Shown here: positions 1 through 33,405 of the stretch, in pieces
How the letters are laid out: each line of letters starts with the position of its first letter
How positions within the stretch are numbered: the stretch's first letter is position 1
Source: Methanothrix sp.
Lineage (GTDB): Archaea > Halobacteriota > Methanosarcinia > Methanotrichales > Methanotrichaceae
DNA: 33,405 nt
Direction of reading: 5' to 3'
Assembly (NCBI GenBank): GCA_029907715.1
Contig: JARYLI010000018.1
Location: 1 to 33,405 of the forward strand
Program-made: the position numbers and the translations under genes
Notes under the pieces: model-generated
Databases searched by the model: none
What the model was told of the DNA's origin: nothing
The model's input: the letters and a program-made list of their open reading frames with translations, nothing else

Positions 1-750
1 AGTCTGGTTGCATCACCGGAATCGCCACAGGTCGCGGGTGTGGTGGTTGCATGGACAGCGAATGCATCAGATCCTGATGGGGATGCGCTCGAGTACCAGT
101 TCATGGTGGATGGTAACGTTGTGAGGGACTGGTCTGCTGACAACACATGGACTTGGTCGACGACAGATGGAGATGTTGGATCTCACACTGTGACAGTTGC
201 TGTGAGGGATGGAAGGAACGAGCCTGTTTCCGCGTCATCCCAGTACACTGTAGAGGCCAGGGTAGTACCGAACAATCCGCCTGTGATCGATAGTCTGGTT
301 GCATCACCGGAATCGCCACAGGTCGCGGGTGTGGTGGTTGCATGGACAGCGAATGCATCAGATCCTGATGGGGATGCGCTCGAGTACCAGTTCATGGTGG
401 ATGGTAGCGTTGTGAGGGACTGGTCTGCTGAAAACACATGGACGTGGTCGACGACAGATGGAGATGTTGGATCTCACACTGTGACGGTTGCTGTGAGAGA
501 TGGAAGGAACGAGCCTGTTTCCGCGTCATCCCAGTACACTGTAGAGGCCAGGGTAGTACCGAACAATCCGCCTGTGATCGATAGTCTGGTTGCATCACCG
601 GAATCGCCACAGGTCGCGGGTGTGGTGGTTGCATGGACAGCGAATGCATCAGATCCTGACGGGGATGCGCTCGAGTACCAGTTCATGGTGGATGGTAACG
701 TTGTGAGGGACTGGTCTGCTGACAACACATGGACTTGGTCGACGACAGAG
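1..750 (+). repeat. Near-identical 291-bp tandem coding repeats
   Basis: Units begin at 1, 292 and 583 with the same sequence (agtctggttgcatcaccgg). The first two are complete and differ at only a few positions; the third diverges after about 748. The period of 291 bp equals 97 codons, so copy number can change without breaking the frame. DNA-level identity implies recent duplication or gene conversion. Confidence 0.95.
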
Positions 751-3700
751 CAGGATATCGGGGTGCACACGATAACCGCAGGCGTCAGGGACAACAGGCA
801 TGCCACAGATGGATCCGCTGACAGCACGGTCGCTGAGGAGTACGAGGTTCTCAGAGCTACTGCCCCAGAGAACGTCACTGTGGCTGCCAATGTCACAGAG
901 AACGTAACAGCGCCTGTGAACGTGACAGTTCCGATAAATGTGACGCCTCCGGTCTCAGAAGAGAACGTGGTTCTGCCGGTGATGAGCATATCCGGCTACA
1001 AGTTCAATGATCTGAATGGGAACGGCGTTATGGATTCCGGCGAGGCTGGCCTGGACGGGTGGACGATCGTTCTCACGATGCCAAACCAGACTGAAGTTCA
1101 GACAACAACCGGATTCGACGGATACTACCGGTTTGATGGTCTATCGCCAGGTCTGTACACTGTGAGAGAGCAGGCGAAAGCTGGCTGGGATCCGACAGCA
1201 TCTGAGAGCCAGCAGGTGAACCTGACAGATTCAGATGTGACGGGAATCAACTTCGGGAACATGGCCAGGACATACTACATAAGCGGCAGGCTGTTCGAGG
1301 ATGCGAATAACAACGGCGTCAACGACGGCGAGCCTGGCGTGAAGGGCTGGGAGGTACGCCTGACGAGGCCTGATGCCACTGAAATTGTTGCGACGACGGG
1401 AGACGATGGCTCTTACAGATTCGGGAATCTGACGCCTGGAGTATACACACTTAGAGTGGTTCTGCAGGCCGGCTGGAACGCGAGCGTTCCCTCCAGAGAG
1501 GTGAGCATCACAGACTCGGATCAGAGTGGTGTGGACTTTGGAGTCCAGATGATCGGTTTCACGGTATCAGGCAGGGTCTTCAGCGACCTCGATGCGAACG
1601 GCGTCAACGATGGCGAGCCCGGGCTTCCCGGGTGGACGGTTAAGCTGACGATGTCTGATGGGGAGGAGCGGACTGCAGTCACATCTGATGACGGCTTCTA
1701 CTCCTTCGATCATCTCAGGCCTGGCAGCTACAAAGTCGAGGCCGTGAAGCAGGACGGCTGGAGCCAGACCGCGCCTAAGACCGGCGTGCACACCGTGGAG
1801 GTCAGGGACTCAAGCTTGCCAAACGTCGACTTCGGGTATGCAGGTTTGAGATCGATATCAGGAGTTGTATTCAACGACATCAACGCCAACGGTGTCAGGG
1901 ACGAGGGCGAGCCTGGAGTCAGGGGCTGGAGCGTGACCCTCGAGCAGGGCGGAAACGTCACCTCCATGACTGAGACAGGAGCTGATGGATCATACAAATT
2001 CGAGGGTCTGTCCCCGGGCACCTACAGGGTGAAGCTGATCCCGCAGGACGGCTGGAAGGCGACAACTGAGAGCAGAGATCTGCAGCTCGGAACCGCTGAC
2101 TTGAGCTTCGATATCGGCGTTGCTGGAAGCCTGTCGATAAAGGGCATGAAGTACTACGATCTGAACGCAAACAAGGTCAGGGACGAGGGCGAGCCTGGGA
2201 TACCGGGAAGCGATGTGAACCTGATCGAGAACGGAAAGGTCGTGAGGAGCACAAAGACATCTGAGGACGGCTCGTACACATTCGATAACGTCGCGCCTGG
2301 AACTTACACGATCAGCGATCCTCTGCCTGAGGGCTATGTGGTTGTGACATCATCGACTATAACTGTGACCGTGACCACGAGCACAGTCCTTGATGCGAGC
2401 TTCGGTATAGCAGGCGTTTACACAATCTCAGGAAAGAAGTTCAACGATCTGAATGGCGATGGAAATGATGCTGGAGATCCAGGTATCCCCGGATGGGGAG
2501 TGGTACTTGACGGCACCACAACTCTGGGTGTGCACATAACGGAAACGCAGTACACAGGCTCTGACGGGTCATACACCTTCAGCAACATAGCACCGGGCAC
2601 ATACAAGATCAGCGAGCTCTCCAGACCTGGCTGGACGCAGACATACCCTGGAGGGGATGGATCACACACGGTCACAGTCACCAGCTCAAGCGTATCAGGA
2701 AAGAACTTCGGGAACAGGTATCTCTCGACGAAGGCATCCGTATGGGGAACAAAGTTCAACGATAAGAACAACAACGGTGTCAGGGATGCAGGGGAGCAGG
2801 GACTTCCAGGATGGGAGATAAAGATAAGCAACAGCACCTACACCAGGACAGCGATCACAGACAGCGACGGATGGTACAACTTCACAGGACTTGATGCAGG
2901 AACATACACAGTCACAGAGACCCTGAAGTCGGGCTGGAGCGTCACGAAACCGGCCGGTGGATCCTATTCGATAACGCTCAGCTCAGGCGAGACAAAGACC
3001 GGCGTAGACTTCGGCAATTACAAGTCTCTCCCGACAGGCGCGACGCTGACATCGGACAAAACAAGCCCGCAGAACGTCGGCACGACGGTGGTGTGGACAG
3101 CTAGCGCCACATCCACGGTCCCGCTGGAATACAGCTTCTGGCTCAAGGGTCCATCCACATCAGGACTCTGGCAGGAGAGGAGGAGCTGGTCCTCTGATAA
3201 CACATGGTCCTGGAACACCGCTGGGCTCCAGCCGGGCACCTATGATATCCGTGTATGGATCAGAGACAACTACCACAGCGATACCGGTGATGTGCAGGTC
3301 ACGAAGAGCTTCACTCTCAGGGAGACCAACAGGCCTCCGGAGCTGAGTCTGATAATGGTCGACAGGCCGAGCCCACAGTACCCTGGCGCCTGGGTCAGCT
3401 TCCGGGCTGTGGCACGCGATCCGGAGAGGGATCCGCTGCAGTACAAGTTCCTGCTTAAAGGACCTTCGACAGGATACACCTGGAGAGAGATGACATCCTG
3501 GACATCCAGGAACATATGGACATGGAGGACATCGTTCTTTGACATCGGTTTCAATGAGATAATGGTATACGTGAAGGATGGCAAGCACTCTCCAGATTAT
3601 GATGACAGGAAGACCTGCGGATACACGATCCTGGGATTCATACCGCGCCCGAACCTGCCGCCGGTGATAACGAGCTTCGGCTCGAGCCTCCCGAGCCCGC

Positions 3701-5472
3701 AGTACGCAGGGAGCACGGTGACATGGAGTGCTACGGCGATTGATCCTGAGGGATACCAGGTCTACTACAGGTTCATGCTGAACGGCCCGTCCACAGGCTA
3801 CACATGGAGGGTCGTGCAGGACTGGTCGCTCTCGAACACATGGACATGGAGGACATCCGATATTGACATCGGCAGGTCTCAGGTGGTGGTCCAGATCAGG
3901 GATGGTCTGCATGCACCACCCACGGGCTGGGATGACCAGGCCAGCGCGGCCTTCAGCATCGTGGCAAAGCCGAATCTTCCGCCTGTGATAACCTCGCTCA
4001 CGCCTGACAAACCAAGCCCACAGTCCAGCGGGACGGCGATCAAATGGACTGCAATGGCTACAGATCCTGATAGAGATCCGATCTACTACAGGTTCTGGCT
4101 TAAGGGCCCATCGACGGGGAACACGTGGCAGATAGTCAGGGACTGGTCGACCTCGAACACATGGACGTGGAGTTCGGATCTTGGAGATGCTGGCGATTAC
4201 ACGGTCTTCGTCTATGCCAGGGATGGAAAGCATGCGTCAGCGAACGCCTACGACAGCGCCAGGGGCCAGGTCTACAGGCTGCTCCAGCCGAGGATGGACA
4301 TCGTGACTGGCGCCCAGCTCAGGGGCCAGATCAAGGACTCACCCAGGCTGATATCCACGGACAGAGGGTTTGCGCTTGTCTGTCAGTCGTGGGAGCGTGG
4401 CAGGAGCAGCAACGGCGACATCAGGATACAGACGTATGATGCGTCTATGAAACCTCTGAGCAGCAAGCTTCTGACCAGCGACACTGCATACCAGGACAGG
4501 CCCTCAGTCGTCTATGACGGAAAGAACTACTATGTTGTGTACGTCTCCAACGAGAAGGGCAACATGGACATCTTCATGAAGAAGCTCGATCCGGGCCTGA
4601 ATGTGCTGGAGACGAGGCAGCTCACAACATCTGCGAGCGATCAGGACTCTCCGGCTCTGCTGAAGGTGGGGGATGATTTCTACCTGGCCTACCAGTCATG
4701 GGAGGGCGGCAAGAGCAGCAACGGTGACATCTACCTGACACGCTTCGACTCGACCTGGAAGCCTCTCAGGAGCGTGAGGCTCACAGCCGACAGTTACTAT
4801 CAGGACATCCCCTCCCTAGTGCTGGCCAGCGGCTACATCTACGTATCTTATGTGTCAGAGGATCGCGGGAATCTCGATGTGGTCGTCAAGAAGCTCGACA
4901 CGAACCTCAACCTGCTGGACACCAGGAGGCTGACAGGAGGATCCACAGATGAGGATCAGCCGTACCTGCTGTGGAGCAATGGTGAGTTCATGCTGGTGTA
5001 CAGGAGTGAAGATGGGATAGCGCTGGAGAGGTACAGGCGCGACTGGAGCAGCATCGATAAGAGCCTCGTGCTGAGCGGAGATCTCAGCTGGCCATCAATC
5101 GCCTGTGGCAATGGACGTTACTGGCTGTCATACGTAGATGGCAACAGCATTTACGCCACGCCTCTGAAGATAACAAGCGCGCTGCCGCCGTGCGATGTAA
5201 GGGCGAGCTTCAGCTCCAGGAGAGCAAACAGGGACTACCTGATGACTCTGAGGTTCTACAACAACTACGGCGAACTCACAGACCCGACGTTCCTGAAGAT
5301 GACCTGGAGCCCGCAGGATGCAGCCACGCAGGGAAGCACTCTCAAGAGGGTTGCAACAGGCATGTACAGGATGCGCTCGACATTTGGCGCTCCAGGGGAG
5401 AAGAGCTTCAGGGTGACAGCAACCGTTGATGGAAGCCAGCTCGACAAGACCATCAGGGTCAGAGTGAGATGA
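1..5472 (+). CDS. Giant modular surface protein (Ig-like, SdrD B-like and propeller-like repeats), 5' end outside window
   Basis: The reading frame is open from base 1, and the first residues repeat a sequence found again 97 residues later, so the gene starts upstream of the window. Order of parts: three 97-residue Ig/PKD-like repeats (about 1-840), a linker rich in NVT glycosylation sequons (about 860-960), seven SdrD/Cna B-like domains each opening with a motif like FNDLNGNG and closing near TxTGxDGxYxF (about 985-3020), four Ig-like repeats carrying KGPSTG and a TWTWRT-type strand (about 3030-4290), a region of recurring strands such as QSWERGRSSNGDI that suggests a beta-propeller (about 4300-5180), and a C-terminal beta domain. 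No transmembrane anchor is visible at the C-terminus. Asp/Asn-rich loops in the SdrD domains resemble calcium sites of that family. A cell-surface, sheath or adhesion role is inferred; the exact function is unknown. A terminator follows directly. Confidence 0.9.
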   Translation, partial: SLVASPESPQVAGVVVAWTANASDPDGDALEYQFMVDGNVVRDWSADNTWTWSTTDGDVGSHTVTVAVRDGRNEPVSASSQYTVEARVVPNNPPVIDSLVASPESPQVAGVVVAWTANASDPDGDALEYQFMVDGSVVRDWSAENTWTWSTTDGDVGSHTVTVAVRDGRNEPVSASSQYTVEARVVPNNPPVIDSLVASPESPQVAGVVVAWTANASDPDGDALEYQFMVDGNVVRDWSADNTWTWSTTEQDIGVHTITAGVRDNRHATDGSADSTVAEEYEVLRATAPENVTVAANVTENVTAPVNVTVPINVTPPVSEENVVLPVMSISGYKFNDLNGNGVMDSGEAGLDGWTIVLTMPNQTEVQTTTGFDGYYRFDGLSPGLYTVREQAKAGWDPTASESQQVNLTDSDVTGINFGNMARTYYISGRLFEDANNNGVNDGEPGVKGWEVRLTRPDATEIVATTGDDGSYRFGNLTPGVYTLRVVLQAGWNASVPSREVSITDSDQSGVDFGVQMIGFTVSGRVFSDLDANGVNDGEPGLPGWTVKLTMSDGEERTAVTSDDGFYSFDHLRPGSYKVEAVKQDGWSQTAPKTGVHTVEVRDSSLPNVDFGYAGLRSISGVVFNDINANGVRDEGEPGVRGWSVTLEQGGNVTSMTETGADGSYKFEGLSPGTYRVKLIPQDGWKATTESRDLQLGTADLSFDIGVAGSLSIKGMKYYDLNANKVRDEGEPGIPGSDVNLIENGKVVRSTKTSEDGSYTFDNVAPGTYTISDPLPEGYVVVTSSTITVTVTTSTVLDASFGIAGVYTISGKKFNDLNGDGNDAGDPGIPGWGVVLDGTTTLGVHITETQYTGSDGSYTFSNIAPGTYKISELSRPGWTQTYPGGDGSHTVTVTSSSVSGKNFGNRYLSTKASVWGTKFNDKNNNGVRDAGEQGLPGWEIKISNSTYTRTAITDSDGWYNFTGLDAGTYTVTETLKSGWSVTKPAGGSYSITLSSGETKTGVDFGNYKSLPTGATLTSDKTSPQNVGTTVVWTASATSTVPLEYSFWLKGPSTSGLWQERRSWSSDNTWSWNTAGLQPGTYDIRVWIRDNYHSDTGDVQVTKSFTLRETNRPPELSLIMVDRPSPQYPGAWVSFRAVARDPERDPLQYKFLLKGPSTGYTWREMTSWTSRNIWTWRTSFFDIGFNEIMVYVKDGKHSPDYDDRKTCGYTILGFIPRPNLPPVITSFGSSLPSPQYAGSTVTWSATAIDPEGYQVYYRFMLNGPSTGYTWRVVQDWSLSNTWTWRTSDIDIGRSQVVVQIRDGLHAPPTGWDDQASAAFSIVAKPNLPPVITSLTPDKPSPQSSGTAIKWTAMATDPDRDPIYYRFWLKGPSTGNTWQIVRDWSTSNTWTWSSDLGDAGDYTVFVYARDGKHASANAYDSARGQVYRLLQPRMDIVTGAQLRGQIKDSPRLISTDRGFALVCQSWERGRSSNGDIRIQTYDASMKPLSSKLLTSDTAYQDRPSVVYDGKNYYVVYVSNEKGNMDIFMKKLDPGLNVLETRQLTTSASDQDSPALLKVGDDFYLAYQSWEGGKSSNGDIYLTRFDSTWKPLRSVRLTADSYYQDIPSLVLASGYIYVSYVSEDRGNLDVVVKKLDTNLNLLDTRRLTGGSTDEDQPYLLWSNGEFMLVYRSEDGIALERYRRDWSSIDKSLVLSGDLSWPSIACGNGRYWLSYVDGNSIYATPLKITSALPPCDVRASFSSRRANRDYLMTLRFYNNYGELTDPTFLKMTWSPQDAATQGSTLKRVATGMYRMRSTFGAPGEKSFRVTATVDGSQLDKTIRVRVR

Positions 5473-8728: not shown

Positions 8729-10075
8729 ATGACCAACCTTATGTTTTACAGCACAAATGGCTCGCCCGAGCGCGTCGACTTCAGGCAGGCCCTGCTGTCA
8801 GGCCAGGCTCCGGATATGGGTCTTTACATGCCCGAGCACATCCCGAGGATCGGTCCAGAGGAGATCTCGCGCTTCTCAAAAATGAGGTATCCTCAGATTG
8901 CGTACAGGGTTGTGGGACCTTACATCGGCGATCTCATCCCGGAAGGGGATCTGATATCAATGCTGGAGGATGCATACAGCTTCGATGTCCCGATAGAGAG
9001 GGTCTTCGATCGAGCGCATGTGATGCGTCTGGATCGTGGGCCCACCTGCTCCTTCAAGGATTTTGCTGCCAGGCTGATGGGCAGGCTCGTTCAGTACTTC
9101 CTGGAAAGGGAGGGGCGGAGCATAATCATACTCACCGCTACATCAGGAGACACGGGCAGCGCTGTGGCCCATGCATTCTACGGTCTGGGAAACGTTATGG
9201 TTGTCGTTCTCTACCCTAGGGAGGAGGTCACCGAGCGGCAGAGAAAGCAGATGACAACGCTCGGCGGAAATGTGCATGCTCTGGCGGTTGATGGCAAGTT
9301 CGATGACTGCCAGGCTCTCGTCAAGAGAGCATTTGCGGATCCGGAGCTGAGAGACCTCAACCTCTCCTCAGCGAACTCGATAAACGTCGGGAGGCTTCTG
9401 CCTCAGGCAGTCTACTACTTCTACGCATACTCCAGGATCTCTGAAGGAGAGGAGATCGTCATATCTGTGCCGAGTGGCAACTTCGGCAACCTGATGGGTG
9501 GGCTCATCGCGATGCGGATGGGGCTGCCTGTGAGGCGGTTTGTGGTCGCGACGAACGAGAACGATGAGTTTCCGGTGTTCATGCGCACAGGCATCTACAA
9601 GCCTATAAGACCCAGCAGGAACTGCATCTCAAACGCAATGAACGTGGGCCATCCTAGCAACCTCGCCAGGGTGTTCGCGCTTTACGGCGGCTGGATGGAT
9701 GAAAAAGGAGTTGTGAGAAGAGAGCCGGATCTGGATGCGATGCGAAGGGATATGTTCGCGGTCTCTGTGAGCGATGATGAGACGAGAAAAACCATAAAGG
9801 AGGTCTACGAGCGCCACGGGGTGCTCCTGGAGCCACACGGAGCGGTCGGATGGGCGGGTCTCATGAGATACTTCGAGGAGGTCGAGCGCTGGGAGCCGTC
9901 AGTCTCGCTGGAGACCGCGGATCCCGCGAAGTTCCCTGAGGAGATCATCCGCGTTCTTGGAGTGACGCCTCCGCTCCCGCGGGCGATGGCAGAGCTCGAC
10001 AGCCTGGAGGAGCACATAGAGAAGATCGATGGATCCTATGAGTCCCTGAAGTCATACCTCAGAGGTCTGCGATGA
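8729..10075 (+). CDS. thrC: Threonine synthase
   Basis: About 448 residues. This pyridoxal-phosphate enzyme converts O-phosphohomoserine to threonine. The PLP lysine is K110 within GPTCSFKDFAARL, the phosphate-binding motif ATSGDTGSAVAHAF follows, and SANSINVGRLLPQ and PSGNFGNLMGG are typical of the long form of threonine synthase. The N-terminus (FYSTNG, later APDMGLYMPE) also fits. I chose the ATG at 8729 because it follows a TATA box at leaderless spacing; the frame extends to 8642, but those residues are not family-like. Its stop overlaps the start of the next gene (ATGA), so the two are translationally coupled. Confidence 0.95.
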   Translation: MTNLMFYSTNGSPERVDFRQALLSGQAPDMGLYMPEHIPRIGPEEISRFSKMRYPQIAYRVVGPYIGDLIPEGDLISMLEDAYSFDVPIERVFDRAHVMRLDRGPTCSFKDFAARLMGRLVQYFLEREGRSIIILTATSGDTGSAVAHAFYGLGNVMVVVLYPREEVTERQRKQMTTLGGNVHALAVDGKFDDCQALVKRAFADPELRDLNLSSANSINVGRLLPQAVYYFYAYSRISEGEEIVISVPSGNFGNLMGGLIAMRMGLPVRRFVVATNENDEFPVFMRTGIYKPIRPSRNCISNAMNVGHPSNLARVFALYGGWMDEKGVVRREPDLDAMRRDMFAVSVSDDETRKTIKEVYERHGVLLEPHGAVGWAGLMRYFEEVERWEPSVSLETADPAKFPEEIIRVLGVTPPLPRAMAELDSLEEHIEKIDGSYESLKSYLRGLR

Positions 10076-11040
10076 GATTCGATGATATAGGTAGCTTTCC
10101 GCATGGAAGAATCGAGGGGATGAGAAGAGAGGAGTACCTCTCTCTTGTGAGGAGCATAATGGAGATGAAGATCTCTGCTGGGGTCCAGGTGCCGACATAC
10201 CCTCAGCTCAGGGACATGATAGGCATGTTCATGGACCCCATGAGATCCCCCGAGACCACGGATGGCCCGTATCTGATCCGCAGGGATGCAGCCGAGATAA
10301 TGGAGCTTGATGCTCTCAAATCCATCGGACGAAACATTCGCGTCTGCGTCACAGGCCCTCTCGAGCTTTACGTATCAGAATTCGGATCGACGAACTACGA
10401 GGATCTGCTCATCAACATGGCAGAGAGCGTCTCTCGCTTCATAGAGAGGGCCATCGAGAAAGCGCGGCAGCTTGGCATTGATGTGGCTGTCATCTCGATC
10501 GACGAGCCGAGCCTGGGGATCAGCTCCAGCATAGTCTTCTCAGAGGATGTGATCATCGAGGCGCTAGAGGTGGCGATCAGGGGATGCGCAGGAAGGGTCG
10601 ATGTCCAGGTTCACCTACACTCTCCGGTTCACGCGGAGCTCTGCGCCCGCGTTTCCGGCATAAATGTCATAGGCGTTGAGTCAGCGTCACATCCCGATTA
10701 TCTCGATATCATCGACCGGAAGGCGCTTGCCGAGAACGATACGTTCATAAGAGCCGGGATAGCCAGGACAGACATCCTCTCGATGGTTGCGAGGCTCAAT
10801 GAGCAGCTCAACACAAACCTCTGGGAGCAGCCGGATAGGCTCGAGGCCGAGATCCTCAGGATGGAGTCTCCAGAGGTCATCAGGAGGAGACTCGAACGGG
10901 CTGTGCGGATCTTCGGGGATCTCGTCAGATACGCAGGCCCGGACTGCGGCCTGGGCTCATGGCCGTCGCAGCACCTCGCAGCAGAGCTCCTGAGGAACTG
11001 CGCTAGGGCGATCGAGACGTTCAGAGGAGAGACAAGCTGA
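10072..11040 (+). CDS. MetE C-terminal-like (cobalamin-independent methionine synthase family) protein
   Basis: About 322 residues, the length of the catalytic C-terminal half of MetE, as in the folate-independent core methionine synthases of methanogens. Family features are the N-terminal DIGSFPH, ISIDEPSLG in the barrel core, VIGVESASHPD and GPDCGLGSWP near the C-terminus. In MetE, zinc is bound by His-X-Cys, a Glu and a late Cys. The Glu (VES) and late Cys (PDCG) are visible, but the His-X-Cys site reads VHLHSPVH, so the first Cys is absent; a Cys six residues after VH (HAELC) might substitute. It overlaps thrC by four bases. A methyl transfer to a thiol is likely, but the acceptor and donor are uncertain. 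Confidence 0.8.
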   Translation: MRFDDIGSFPHGRIEGMRREEYLSLVRSIMEMKISAGVQVPTYPQLRDMIGMFMDPMRSPETTDGPYLIRRDAAEIMELDALKSIGRNIRVCVTGPLELYVSEFGSTNYEDLLINMAESVSRFIERAIEKARQLGIDVAVISIDEPSLGISSSIVFSEDVIIEALEVAIRGCAGRVDVQVHLHSPVHAELCARVSGINVIGVESASHPDYLDIIDRKALAENDTFIRAGIARTDILSMVARLNEQLNTNLWEQPDRLEAEILRMESPEVIRRRLERAVRIFGDLVRYAGPDCGLGSWPSQHLAAELLRNCARAIETFRGETS

Positions 11041-11139: not shown

Positions 11140-11703
11140 TCAAATCACTCCCTTCGTGCTCAGAACCCCGGGCGATCCCGGCTCCACGGCGTTGCGGATC
11201 GCGAGCCCCAGCGCCTTGAACATGCTCTCCGCTATGTGGTGGTCGTTCTCTCCCTCGAACCTGACGTGCAGCGTCAGCCTTCCGCGGTCGGTGATCCCCT
11301 TCAGCACCGACTTTATCTCGAAGGTGTTCAGATCCCCGATCCTCTCCCCATGAAACGATCCCCTCATCACGAGGTATGCCCTCCCGCCCAGATCCAGGGC
11401 CACCTCGGCAAGCGCATCATCCATCGGGATGGCCGCGAACCCGTATCTTCTTATTCCGCTCCTCTCGCCCAGCGCCTGATCGAGCGAGGCTCCGATCACC
11501 GATCCCAGGAGTGAATACCTGTAAAGAGAGTTCCCGCCAGCGGATGCTCTGATGTCGATCGATCCCAGCTTCGCCATCGAATTGAGCATGTGATCCATGA
11601 ACCCAGAGCCTGTGGAGGCGGTCGCGGCTCCGCTGCCATCGAGGTTCACCTCCGCGGTCGCAAACGCGCCCATCTCTCTGAGCTCAGATCTGCCTGTGCG
11701 CAT
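11140..11703 (-). CDS. hisB: Imidazoleglycerol-phosphate dehydratase homologue lacking one metal motif
   Basis: About 187 residues, the normal length of monofunctional HisB. Conserved parts are GSGFMDHML, GIRRYGFAAIPMDDAL, ALDLGGRAYLV, the second metal motif GENDHHIAESMFKALG and the C-terminal STKG. HisB normally carries two DHHxxE motifs that bind manganese and dehydrate imidazoleglycerol phosphate in histidine synthesis. Where the first should be, the sequence reads GGNSLYRYSLLGS, with no His or Glu. The reading frame is intact, so this is substitution and not a frameshift. It may be a divergent enzyme, an inactive paralogue, or one with a changed reaction. The ATG at 11703 is the only reasonable start. 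Confidence 0.85.
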   Translation of the reverse strand: MRTGRSELREMGAFATAEVNLDGSGAATASTGSGFMDHMLNSMAKLGSIDIRASAGGNSLYRYSLLGSVIGASLDQALGERSGIRRYGFAAIPMDDALAEVALDLGGRAYLVMRGSFHGERIGDLNTFEIKSVLKGITDRGRLTLHVRFEGENDHHIAESMFKALGLAIRNAVEPGSPGVLSTKGVI

Positions 11704-28663: not shown

Positions 28664-29596
28664 CTACTGACAGTACTCCCTGTATCTGCATTCCTCCCGT
28701 TCAGAGCATTTTCCAGGTTCCCTCTCGTAGAATATCATGTCCTGTATACCGTCCCTCTCCTCCACAAACCACTGCCTGAGCTCGTCGCTCAGGATAAAGA
28801 AGTCCCTCTCGATGTGCGGAGTCGGGTGACCTTTGGGGAAACTCAGGTAAACCGTGCAGCCGATGTTTATTGGCACCTCGTAGAGGCTCTCATAGACCAG
28901 CGCATATCCAGTTGCGGAGAGCCTGTGGAAGTCCATTCTCTGGCCGGTCTTCAGGTCGCAGACCATCATCCCTCCCATGTTTATCGCATCTGCGCTCAGG
29001 TTGCTGCTCAGCCCGAGGTACCTGCCATCCAGCTTGTGCTCCACGACAAATGGAAGAGCATGGTTTACAAGCGAGTCCTCGCTTATATACCGGTACTTTC
29101 CGAGGTAGGTGTATATCGCAGAGACTATTCTCGAGACCTCGAAAGACCAGAGCTTTCTGAGGTTATCGATGATCTCCCTGGGAGCATCTGATAAGCCAGA
29201 AGCCAGCATCTGCTTCTCTGCTTCCTTAATCGCATCTGGCATTCGTTCCATGAGTATCTGGGCGAGAGACGTACAGACATCAAGTCCCTGCGAATAGATC
29301 AGCCTTTTCGCAAGGGGAAAAAGCCTGGCGATCGCCTGATGGTATATCCGCCCGGCGACCATCTCCACGCTTGGAGGGACATCAACTCTCATAACATGTC
29401 TCAGGAAAGCATCTCTCCTAGTCTCGCAGTACTTATCTGCGATCTCCCAGACCGGCAGAGTTATATCATGAGGCGGTGAGAGTTCTGACCTGTACCAGTT
29501 CCAGCCTCTCAGCTCCTCAGCTATACCTCTATCCCGGGCTGCAGGTATGAGCTTTTTCAGAAGGTACTTCCTCTCCTCCTCTGAAAAGAAATACAT
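28664..29596 (-). CDS. csa1: CRISPR-associated Csa1 (Cas4-like exonuclease family)
   Basis: About 310 residues. The protein resembles the Csa1 branch of Cas4: an early Cys in YCETRRDAF, a RecB-type nuclease core (DGRYLGLSSNLSADAI, MVCDLKTGQRMDFHRL with the D-x-K motif) and a C-terminal cysteine set CSEREECRYREYC that would complete a 4Fe-4S cluster. Csa1 and Cas4 are thought to trim prespacers and set the PAM and orientation during spacer capture. The ATG at 29596 follows a strong gggaggga site; an ATG at 29611 is possible. Last gene of the adaptation operon. Confidence 0.82.
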   Translation of the reverse strand: MYFFSEEERKYLLKKLIPAARDRGIAEELRGWNWYRSELSPPHDITLPVWEIADKYCETRRDAFLRHVMRVDVPPSVEMVAGRIYHQAIARLFPLAKRLIYSQGLDVCTSLAQILMERMPDAIKEAEKQMLASGLSDAPREIIDNLRKLWSFEVSRIVSAIYTYLGKYRYISEDSLVNHALPFVVEHKLDGRYLGLSSNLSADAINMGGMMVCDLKTGQRMDFHRLSATGYALVYESLYEVPINIGCTVYLSFPKGHPTPHIERDFFILSDELRQWFVEERDGIQDMIFYEREPGKCSEREECRYREYCQ

Positions 29597-29617
29597 TTGA
29601 CTCCCTCCCATGCACCT

Positions 29618-30202
29618 TTAAATACATTCGCAGTAGCGCCTGTACTCGCAGTCTGTGCATCTGGCAGGATTTCTGGAGTGGGTTGGTTCTGTTTCGTCCT
29701 CAACAATCCTCCTGATTTCCATGATCGTCTTCATGGTCCTGCGTCGCAGCTCGTCTGTGATATCTATCCGGACGTTCAGGCGCTCCCTGCTGTAGTGGAT
29801 GAATCCCCGGCGGACTGTGGCCCTGAAGCAGTCCTCGACGAGAAGCGCGTATGCAACCAGCTGATACTTATGGTTCAGATATGCTGCGCCGTTATTTGAG
29901 TATCCAAATTTGTAGTCCACAGGTATAAGCTCCTTCTCGGTCTTAACAAGATAATCGAGAACACCGCGCAGACCGAGAGACTGACTCATCAGCTCCACAC
30001 GGAAGAGCTTCTCCGCGCTGTCCAGCTCCGGATCGTAGAATACCGCGCCCTTTCTCCTTTTCTCTCTGGCCGTGATGGACTCGTGTGCCTCCTTGCCTGA
30101 GTCCAGCTTTTGATCGGGCGGCTTCGGCACATGAAGTACATGATCGAAGTATATTATCTTCGGGCAGTAGAGGTACTGCTTTACATCGCTCACGCTTATC
30201 AT
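29618..30202 (-). CDS. cas4: CRISPR-associated exonuclease Cas4
   Basis: About 194 residues. C13 (YLYCP) plus the C-terminal set RCTDCEYRRYC give the four cysteines of the Cas4 iron-sulfur cluster. The RecB nuclease motifs are RGVLDYLV and IPVDYKFG (D-x-K), followed by HKYQLVAYALLVE, the QxxxY motif. Cas4 processes prespacer ends for Cas1-Cas2. It starts 10 nt after cas2 ends and is followed about 20 nt later by csa1. Confidence 0.92.
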   Translation of the reverse strand: MISVSDVKQYLYCPKIIYFDHVLHVPKPPDQKLDSGKEAHESITAREKRRKGAVFYDPELDSAEKLFRVELMSQSLGLRGVLDYLVKTEKELIPVDYKFGYSNNGAAYLNHKYQLVAYALLVEDCFRATVRRGFIHYSRERLNVRIDITDELRRRTMKTIMEIRRIVEDETEPTHSRNPARCTDCEYRRYCECI

Positions 30203-30212
30203 ATGGATGCTG

Positions 30213-30491
30213 CTAAATAACTCTCACATTCTCCTCCTCGATCTCGTACAGCTCTCCGATGCTCTCTCTCATGCCGAAGCACCTGGAGCACATCGGATAG
30301 AGCTGGATGTTTCCCTCCTCTCCCTGCATCAACCTCTCAAGGCGGAGGCGAAGCTTATCTCTTGTGTTGTGGTTGAGAAAGCCATAGAAAGCACTCTTCT
30401 GGATGCGCATGCAGCCGTACTCCATGAGAACCCTGGCCACTCTTGCTCTAAGGAGGTCATCGCTGATATCGTAAATTATGATTGTGTCCAT
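30213..30491 (-). CDS. cas2: CRISPR-associated endoribonuclease-fold protein Cas2
   Basis: About 92 residues. It starts DTIIIYDISDDLLRARVARVL with the conserved Asp after the first beta strand (D8), followed by the RIQKSAFYGFL strand typical of Cas2, and ends in a short beta strand. A Cas2 dimer bridges two Cas1 dimers in the integrase. The ATG at 30491 follows the cas1 stop directly; an ATG at 30500 would overlap cas1 and add three residues. Confidence 0.92.
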   Translation of the reverse strand: MDTIIIYDISDDLLRARVARVLMEYGCMRIQKSAFYGFLNHNTRDKLRLRLERLMQGEEGNIQLYPMCSRCFGMRESIGELYEIEEENVRVI

Positions 30492-30493
30492 GA

Positions 30494-31510
30494 TCACCAT
30501 CTCGGTGTGAATGGTTCATAGCGCGGACGCTCTCCTCTCAGGAATGTGGCCACAGAAGATGCCTGCGAACGGATTATATTCCTGAGAAGCTGGCTCCTCT
30601 CCTGGTACTGGATCCGCTCATCCAGGCGGTTGTAGAATGCGGATGATGCGATCCTCATGCCCTCCCTTGTCATCCTGCAGTTATCCTGGAAATGGGCCTG
30701 AGACATCGTGCGGGAAAGGGAGACGACGACGCGATCCACAACCAGTGGTCTGAACTCCTCCATCATATCATACACGAGCTTCTCCTGTCCGGAGCGATCT
30801 GCGTGCAGGTATCCGGCATACGGATCGAGGCCTGCATAGAGAACTGCTGCCCACACCTCCTGCTCCAGGACGTAGTAGCCGAAGTTGAGGAGAGAGTTTA
30901 TCGGGTCACCGGCTGCTGGATACTTCCTGCCAGGAAAGCTCCAGAACTCGGGTATGAGCTTGGACCAGGTGCGCCAGTAGATCTCGCTTGCGTTGCCCTC
31001 CAGCCCCATTATCAGATCACGTGCATCATCGAGCCTGCCCTTCACAGCATCAAGCTCCGGTATGATAGATTCGATCTCGCTGGAGCTGTCACGGAACTCC
31101 TGCCACAGATCCCTCCTCTCAGCCTTCCACTTCTTGGCAAAGCTCTTCAGCAGCGATGCCTGGTTCTTCAGCTTTCCGCGTATGAATGCCTTGGCGAGCT
31201 CAATTCCCCTCTCGTCGTCATATGCATGGTACTGCTCCCGTCTCGTCCTGACCGTGCCGCCGAGGGTTGCAGGTATCAGTCTGGCAAGGGGTTTTCCGTA
31301 GTAGCTGGCGAATACGATCTCCACTCCAAGCTCATTGGCCATCTCTATGGCATCTGATGAGACTGATATTCCAGATCCGAGCACGAGGATCTGATCCACC
31401 TTGCGTGCAGGTATCAGGATTTCAGGCCTGTCCCTGCGGAGCACCCGGAACTGCTCGCCGGTCTTCCCCAGGAATGTGCCACGATCCGAGAGGATTATAC
31501 GGGGCATCAT
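30494..31510 (-). CDS. cas1: CRISPR-associated integrase Cas1
   Basis: About 338 residues. The beta-sheet N-terminal domain (IILSDRGTFLGK, VDQILVLGSGISVSSDAI) precedes the helical catalytic domain. Metal ligands of the family can be placed at E171 (GLEGNASEIYW), H236 (GYLHADRSG) and D248 or E251 (LVYDMMEEFRPLVVD). Cas1 inserts new spacers at the leader end of the array. The ATG at 31510 lies about 25 nt from a TATA-like tataattaat on this strand, so the operon cas1-cas2-cas4-csa1 likely begins here and runs away from the array. Confidence 0.95.
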   Translation of the reverse strand: MMPRIILSDRGTFLGKTGEQFRVLRRDRPEILIPARKVDQILVLGSGISVSSDAIEMANELGVEIVFASYYGKPLARLIPATLGGTVRTRREQYHAYDDERGIELAKAFIRGKLKNQASLLKSFAKKWKAERRDLWQEFRDSSSEIESIIPELDAVKGRLDDARDLIMGLEGNASEIYWRTWSKLIPEFWSFPGRKYPAAGDPINSLLNFGYYVLEQEVWAAVLYAGLDPYAGYLHADRSGQEKLVYDMMEEFRPLVVDRVVVSLSRTMSQAHFQDNCRMTREGMRIASSAFYNRLDERIQYQERSQLLRNIIRSQASSVATFLRGERPRYEPFTPRW

Positions 31511-31550: not shown

Positions 31551-31749
31551 TTGATGAAGTCTCTAGGCAATCCCGAATGGTCATGGGCTTACAGATGCTC
31601 CAGAAGCTTCTAAGGATACGCCTGTACTCACATGGCAGCCTTCGCCAGGGTTTATATACCCGCTTACATCCTGGTACCTGGCGAAAATCCACCACAATTC
31701 AGACCTGTCCGGCAAAAGATTTATGTAAAATAGACCCCTCATATGGGCT
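31551..31749 (+). promoter_or_regulatory. CRISPR leader with hairpin-enclosed TATA box
   Basis: This region joins the cas1 promoter to the first repeat. ttcgccagg (31641-31649) is the exact reverse complement of cctggcgaa (31677-31685), and between them lies tttatatacc, a strong TATA box. A second TATA-like stretch, gatttatgtaaaa, lies 20-32 nt before the first repeat. The orientation agrees with the repeat end ACTGAAAG, which is the usual archaeal crRNA 5' handle, so the array is transcribed rightward from here. Confidence 0.65.
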
Positions 31750-33405
31750 GTTGCAAGGCGAATCCCGATGAAAAGGGAACTGAAAGCCGTACTGATCGAG
31801 CTTTACCTCTTCCTCATACCTGAGTTGCAAGGCGAATCCCGATGAAAAGGGAACTGAAAGCTGTCTGAGCGCTTCGGTGTGTGTTTTCTCGTCCTCGTGT
31901 TGCAAGGCGAATCCCGATGAAAAGGGAACTGAAAGTGTAGCATACTCGATCTTGTTGAACAGCGAAAACGCTTGTTGCAAGGCGAATCCCGATGAAAAGG
32001 GAACTGAAAGTCGACACCAGCTGGAACCGCTTCTCAAGTGCGATCAGCGTTGCAAGGCGAATCCCGATGAAAAGGGAACTGAAAGGTCCAATCGATACCC
32101 CACACACCCTCCTTGAAGTAGGCGTGTTGCAAGGCGAATCCCGATGAAAAGGGAACTGAAAGACACGATCACCTGACATATCGTCCGGACGTCCACCGTG
32201 CGTTGCAAGGCGAATCCCGATGAAAAGGGAACTGAAAGATGTCGAGCGGTTGTATCGTGACGCGTGGTGTTGAGATACGTTGCAAGGCGAATCCCGATGA
32301 AAAGGGAACTGAAAGCTGAGCAGCCTGGTACGTCCACGCCTTCGCCTTCTGATAGTTGCAAGGCGAATCCCGATGAAAAGGGAACTGAAAGCTCGACATT
32401 GTCTGCGCAGGATGGGTGCCGGTCGATGAGTTGCAAGGCGAATCCCGATGAAAAGGGAACTGAAAGTGATGTCTGCCCGACAACCATCACCGCAACATAG
32501 TCAGAGTTGCAAGGCGAATCCCGATGAAAAGGGAACTGAAAGAGTAAAGTGTACGACCATCATCTAACCTCTCAGGAGGTTGCAAGGCGAATCCCGATGA
32601 AAAGGGAACTGAAAGCTCTCCATCCCACGCACGATAGCCAGGGACTCGATGTGTTGCAAGGCGAATCCCGATGAAAAGGGAACTGAAAGGGATATACAAC
32701 TCAGCAGATCCTCCAGTGTTCACTTTGTTGCAAGGCGAATCCCGATGAAAAGGGAACTGAAAGCGCACTCAATCCGTCCCGCCCTCCATGCGGTCGCCGA
32801 TCGTTGCAAGGCGAATCCCGATGAAAAGGGAACTGAAAGAGGCGGGAGAGGCCAGGACGGATCATGAGTACTACATCCTAGGTTGCAAGGCGAATCCCGA
32901 TGAAAAGGGAACTGAAAGTCGAAGAAGCCGCGCGGATGGTTCGGGCTACGATCGAGTTGCAAGGCGAATCCCGATGAAAAGGGAACTGAAAGCTCGGTAC
33001 CCCGCTACCGATCAGACTCGACCCGTGTGTTGCAAGGCGAATCCCGATGAAAAGGGAACTGAAAGTCTGGCTCTGGAGTGGAGGAGTGTGAATGAATCTT
33101 CCGCGTTGCAAGGCGAATCCCGATGAAAAGGGAACTGAAAGGAGACACCTTCAGACTAGACCCAGTCACTTTTTGCTTGTGTTGCAAGGCGAATCCCGAT
33201 GAAAAGGGAACTGAAAGCAGACCAGGTAGGCAAGGTGATTTGAATTGGCAGAAGAGTTGCAAGGCGAATCCCGATGAAAAGGGAACTGAAAGCAATCTCT
33301 TTCCAGTCTATCATACGCCTTCACGCTCGTTGCAAGGCGAATCCCGATGAAAAGGGAACTGAAAGTGATCTGTGCTGGGCAGTGAGGGTGGGCGGGTTGC
33401 AAGTT
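31750..33405 (+). CRISPR. CRISPR array: 22 intact 37-nt repeats, 21 spacers of 36-42 nt, continuing to window edge
   Basis: The repeat begins gttgcaaggcgaatcccg and ends gggaactgaaag. All 22 complete copies look identical. They start at 31750, 31824, 31899, 31974, 32049, 32126, 32202, 32279, 32355, 32430, 32506, 32579, 32653, 32727, 32803, 32882, 32956, 33029, 33105, 33181, 33256 and 33329. Spacers are all different and I saw no match between them and the rest of the window. At 33396 gttgcaag is followed by tt instead of gc, after only 30 bases of spacer, so the last repeat may be degenerate, marking the distal end. The repeat 3' end resembles type I and III archaeal repeats; the type cannot be fixed without effector genes. 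Confidence 0.98.

Follow-up and report, generated by a model that had tools for sequence, protein, structure and literature searches.

Reciprocal loss of half-sites in two HisB paralogues points to a two-gene IGP dehydratase in Methanotrichaceae

A HisB-type gene and its counterpart elsewhere in the genome

Methanothrix is a major acetoclastic methanogen. HisB, a target of herbicides, is a textbook example of an enzyme that forms homo-oligomers. The window analysed here, a stretch of 33,405 nucleotides from Methanothrix sp. (GCA_029907715.1, contig JARYLI010000018.1), carries on its minus strand an intact open reading frame of 187 codons (11140-11703) encoding a full-length HisB homologue, hereafter B, that matched the Pfam IGP dehydratase (IGPD) family over its full length (PF00475; 1.1e-42, 146 bits, gathering cut-off 27) and, in a sequence search, 18 PDB IGPD sequences. 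These results confirm the sequence-only reading, which had described a full-length HisB homologue without its first metal-binding motif that nevertheless retained FMDHML, DHHIAE and STKG; the three motifs were located at residues 35-40, 154-159 and 182-185 of B, respectively. At the motif-1 position LYRYSLLG replaces HHxxE, and B additionally lacks His145, which belongs to the same half-site as motif 1, and the TxET motif with Glu21. Conserved positions are numbered as in Arabidopsis, anchored on FLDHML; the Arabidopsis reference row agrees over most of its length with an IGPD chain from the PDB search. The features of the two genes are as follows.

11140-11703 (-): HisB-type B subunit, 187 aa, IGPD homologue; FLDH, motif-2, phosphate and C-loop residues kept, motif-1 half-site gone
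11668-11670 (-): Gly12 in place of the catalytic Glu21, TxET lost (alignment)
11590-11592 (-): His38, equivalent to Mn1 ligand His47 (FMDHML), retained (36/36 B, 0/35 A; invariant-column check)
11503-11526 (-): LYRYSLLG at motif 1 (HHxxE, that is His73, His74 and Glu77), lost (both His 0/36 in B, 35/35 in A)
11446-11448 (-): Arg86, equivalent to Arg99, phosphate ligand from the third chain, retained (alignment; chain role from PMC6029752)
11419-11421 (-): Asp95, equivalent to Asp108, chain A residue holding the Mn2 water, retained (alignment; chain role from PMC6029752)
11380-11382 (-): Arg108, equivalent to Arg121, phosphate ligand from the third chain, retained (alignment; chain role from PMC6029752)
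11308-11310 (-): Ser132 in place of His145, an Mn2 ligand, which is lost (His 0/36 in B, 35/35 in A)
11227-11244 (-): DHHIAE, motif 2 (His169, His170, Glu173), retained (36/36 B, invariant columns)
11215-11217 (-): Lys163, equivalent to Lys177, phosphate ligand, chain A residue, retained (alignment)
11149-11160 (-): STKG C-loop (Ser199, Lys201), from the third chain, retained (alignment; chain role from PMC6029752)
G000:C1 158642-159163 (+), which is L002:1414-1935: A subunit, 173 aa (PF00475 search)

Convergent with the B gene lies a 322-aa open reading frame (10072-11040) that matched no Pfam family at E<0.001. Further off in the window, a repetitive 1810-aa open reading frame with near-identical N-terminal repeats (40-5472) probably encodes a surface protein, and in a CRISPR array (31748-33387) a repeat of about 37 nt (GTTGCAAGGCGAATCCCGATGAAAAGGGAACTGAAAG) occurs 22 times at a spacing of 73-79 nt; the array is adjoined by open reading frames (28664-31510, minus strand) that by eye resemble cas4/cas1/cas2.

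A PF00475 search of the window's own assembly (G000; 2.0 Mb, 55 contigs, 99.89% complete) returned exactly two IGPD genes, B and a second one, hereafter A (107.6 bits, cut-off 27), and no canonical or third gene. A has an intact motif 1 (GDHHLVED) and an LEHF segment carrying the equivalent of His145, while LLDDML stands in place of FLDHML, DDREKI replaces motif 2 and the STKG tail is absent. An intact second HisB with two DHHxxE motifs is thereby ruled out, since the sole other IGPD gene is itself devoid of the motif-2 histidines. Just upstream of A, a 179-aa open reading frame without a Pfam match (L002:878-1417) has a stop codon that overlaps the A start codon, and could be an operon partner. 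Both proteins scored above the PF00475 gathering threshold and were modelled by AlphaFold2 at high pLDDT (91.7 for B, 95.2 for A); for each of them all 29 PDB matches found by Foldseek at E<0.001 are IGPDs, with a TM-score of about 0.9 for B, and on these models A and B share the IGPD fold.

Partition of active-site residues between A and B

In the Acanthamoeba IGPD the active sites adjoin two-fold axes, with Mn1 bound by H67A', H40A, H162A and E166A, Mn2 by H66A', E70A', H138A' and H163A, the Mn2 water held by D101A, and the phosphate bound by K170A, R92C, R114C and the C-loop residues S191C and K193C (PMC6029752). The Medicago and Arabidopsis enzymes likewise build the metal site from two subunits and bind the phosphate through a third (PMC10978614, PMC4509728), and HHxxE was reported in all 535 IGPDs surveyed (PMC7284861).

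To this arrangement we compared an alignment of 35 A, 36 B and 61 canonical sequences, in which 46 positions were invariant (kept in at least 95% of the 61 canonical sequences). Twelve of these positions are retained in A only, 19 in B only, 11 in both and 4 in neither; the 11 common positions are Gly, Pro, Ala and one Asp, and are presumably structural. Glu21, a Glu in 61/61 canonical sequences, is present together with His73, His74, Glu77 and His145 in 35/35 A sequences, which have lost His47 and His170 (both 0/35), His169 (1/35), Arg99, Ser199 and Lys201 (each 0/35) and Arg121 (2/35). B shows the opposite pattern: His47, His169, His170, Glu173, Lys177, Arg99, Arg121, Ser199, Lys201 and Asp108 are present in all 36 sequences, His73, His74 and His145 in none, and Glu21 in three (8%). 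A therefore keeps precisely the four A' ligands of the Acanthamoeba site (35/35), and B precisely the four chain-A ligands, along with Lys177, Asp108 and the whole chain-C set of four residues (36/36). If A takes the place of chain A' and B the places of chains A and C, the resulting site is complete but for His55, a chain-A water-mediated phosphate contact that is gone from both proteins; the reverse site is empty.

Residues of one motif were lost together, so losses within a motif are not independent events; the agreement with chain origin extends to His145, His47, Lys177, Asp108, the arginines and the C-loop, all distant in sequence. The full set of eight Mn ligands and both HHxxE motifs is found in neither A nor B and in the pair only, and the residues lost from each protein are those that the other subunit would contribute, with the chain of Glu21 uncertain. 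Defined by its motifs, HisB would correspond to the pair and to neither protein alone. Replacement ligands from nearby positions in the B chain itself, the finding that would have spoken against a missing metal half-site, were looked for among the 36 B sequences and are ruled out: no conserved His or Glu substitutes occur in B, and it is the partner that conserves the ligands.

One legend labels the catalytic glutamate Glu21A, that is, on the chain of Glu173 (PMC4509728), and this would place Glu21 in B, against a partition in which A keeps it and B has lost it. When the two halves of canonical IGPD are aligned as profiles, however, the Glu21 turn falls on the Asp108-Glu109 turn; since Asp108 extends from chain A to the A' metal, the pseudo-symmetry predicts that Glu21 extends from chain A' to the A metal. 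By this alignment, Glu21 is probably supplied by the motif-1 chain, and hence by the A protein.

Occurrence, ancestry and selection

The family survey covered 61 genomes (37 Methanotrichaceae and 24 outgroup). Both A and B are present in 34/37 family genomes and no canonical HisB was found among the 37, whereas each of the 24 outgroup genomes has one canonical copy. The four family genomes assembled into one or two contigs (G002, G018, G019 and G030) contain exactly the A and B pair. A single partner, again with no canonical copy, was seen in three family genomes, all drafts (G010, 85% complete; G014 and G036, 99%). Outside the family, no genome of a 393-genome phylum sample has more than one IGPD copy (in G383, one canonical gene lies on two contigs), and ten genomes of that sample have no IGPD match. 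A scan of named genomes found the A type almost exclusively in Methanothrix, Methanosaeta, Methanocrinis and Methanotrichaceae records and a few loosely named metagenome bins. The more distant matches, in Halorutilus, Acidobacteria, Actinomycetota and Methanomethylicia, all keep both HHxxE motifs and were rejected as split systems.

In the tree A and B are each monophyletic (100/100 for both) on long stems, and the pair is therefore older than the radiation of the family. An AU test rejected neither A and B as sisters (p-AU 0.19) nor B with canonical Methanosarcinales (p-AU 0.38). Within the genus, dN/dS ranges from 0.08 to 0.19 for B and from 0.12 to 0.37 for A, and both genes are under purifying selection. 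Because motif 1 is missing from 36/36 B orthologues, all of the same family, and dN/dS is this low, B is not a decaying copy; a pseudogene or sequencing error is ruled out on the same grounds, and the sequence-only reading was right to take the intact frame as a sign of a selected change.

In one outgroup family, canonical hisB of two genomes (L025 and L026, in G039 and G037) contains a single in-frame TAG at the same place (PMDDSCA*VAID) in an otherwise intact frame, which is possibly read through as pyrrolysine.

A composite IGP dehydratase and its alternatives

The presence of hisG, hisD and several hisA/hisF-type genes in the genome means that the pathway requires an IGP dehydratase step. 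The proposed division of HisB between A and B rests on the reciprocal chain-by-chain partition, its conservation throughout the family, the co-occurrence of the two genes, the lack of a canonical HisB, the IGPD fold of both proteins and the purifying selection on them. We consider it very likely that A and B together form an obligate hetero-oligomeric IGP dehydratase whose composite active sites are built by two gene products. As a homo-oligomer, either protein would be left with an incomplete active site. At a two-fold interface, A would give motif 1 (His73, His74, Glu77), His145 and probably Glu21, and B would give His47, motif 2 (His169, His170, Glu173), Lys177 and Asp108, while a second B of the same trimer would give the C-loop (Ser199/Lys201) together with Arg99 and Arg121. 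The opposite site at that two-fold would be dead. The metal site is probably conventional, as each protein conserves the ligands that the other lacks, and does so on the chain that already contributes them in trans in ordinary IGPD. The idea of a sole HisB with a different metal arrangement, raised in the sequence-only reading, is accordingly not borne out; its other suggestion, a repurposed second copy, was right in that a second copy exists, and not in its repurposing, the partner being the reciprocal half.

Physical assembly of A with B, conventional di-Mn chemistry and the stoichiometry of the enzyme are inferences, as is IGPD activity, for which the pathway genes and the absence of another IGPD gene speak. 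Metal-free IGPD of other species dissociates to trimers (PMC10978614), which places the metal-bound contact of chains A and A' between trimers and that of chains A and C presumably within one. B must then occupy both the A and the C places, so that each trimer should be of one kind, A3 or B3. With eight of them at the corners of a cube, four A3 alternating with four B3, the particle would have 12 working sites as against 24. This alternation and the A12B12 stoichiometry, though probable, are the least certain part of the model. On balance we favour a change at the base of the family from a homo-24-mer to an obligate tetrahedral A12B12 particle, with 12 sites live and 12 dead, by complete reciprocal half-site loss. 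Counted against a split HisB are the unlinked positions of the A and B genes, the persistence of Glu173 in 66% of A sequences, the loss of His55 from both proteins and the three one-gene family genomes, though these are all draft assemblies.

B retains three of the four Mn1 ligands (His47, His169 and Glu173) and the phosphate residues except His55, and might accordingly act as the dehydratase with a simplified one-metal site, A and B each forming homo-oligomers and A being an accessory or a spare. That is very unlikely: Glu21 is gone in 92% of B sequences and its substitution (E21Q) renders Arabidopsis IGPD2 inactive (PMC4509728), both metals are used in mechanistic work, and the invariant retention by A of precisely the ligands that B has lost would go unexplained. 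Highly improbable, too, is that one or both paralogues were repurposed, for another substrate, metal storage or regulation, and that an unrelated enzyme dehydrates IGP. The long stem branches would suit such a history, as would the scores of both proteins below every listed NCBIfam HisB equivalog cut-off (best 163.8 of 231 for B and 120.6 of 231 for A); yet the losses follow the chains to which solved structures assign the residues, every substrate-binding and metal residue apart from His55 survives in one partner or the other, the neighbouring pathway genes are present and there is no third IGPD gene. Activation by a dead paralogue is established (PMC5201418, PMC3663545), and one copy could in principle be active with the other as a structural or allosteric partner that shares no active-site residues, in the manner of the trypanosome AdoMetDC prozyme. 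This we find scarcely credible, for essential ligands are missing from both copies, each of which invariantly keeps a full half-site, and a purely allosteric partner would have no need of HHxxE, His145 and Glu21.

A composite A and B enzyme would share with canonical HisB (PF00475; structures from Arabidopsis, Medicago, Acanthamoeba, M. tuberculosis and P. furiosus) the fold, the intersubunit sites and, once both proteins are counted together, an identical set of residues for the metals, the phosphate and the C-loop, His55 excepted. It differs in that canonical HisB is a homo-24-mer with both HHxxE motifs in each chain, whereas A and B carry one half-site each. In T. brucei S-adenosylmethionine decarboxylase one partner retains its own active site. 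There, a catalytically dead paralogue reportedly activates the enzyme (PMC5201418), a likeness that ends with neither A nor B having a complete active site of its own. Closer is trypanosomatid deoxyhypusine synthase, reported as a pair of degenerate paralogues of a homo-oligomeric enzyme, both needed and active as a hetero-oligomer only (PMC3663545), a behaviour that is here predicted from sequence. Papers on that enzyme use 'active-site complementation' with 'pseudoenzyme' and 'paralogs'. It is a different enzyme with a different fold, and the A/B partition is archaeal and spans a whole di-metal site along chain lines. No earlier account of a split HisB was found among the open-licence PMC papers searched. 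The IGPD family and enzymes of degenerate paralogues are already known; a HisB divided over two genes would be new.

The two metal motifs of HisB had been regarded as universal. If true, the division would mean that two paralogues of a core biosynthetic enzyme have fully subfunctionalised a single active site, and the two-gene lineage would offer a natural test of the passage from homomer to obligate heteromer and of the subunit from which each catalytic residue comes. For annotation, A and B are both likely to be labelled HisB, and either alone would mimic an intact or an oddly broken pathway step in Methanothrix. Elsewhere in the pathway, four HisA/HisF-family genes scored above the Pfam cut-off (G000:C2 and C3, L197-L200), three of them strongly, where hisA and hisF were expected.
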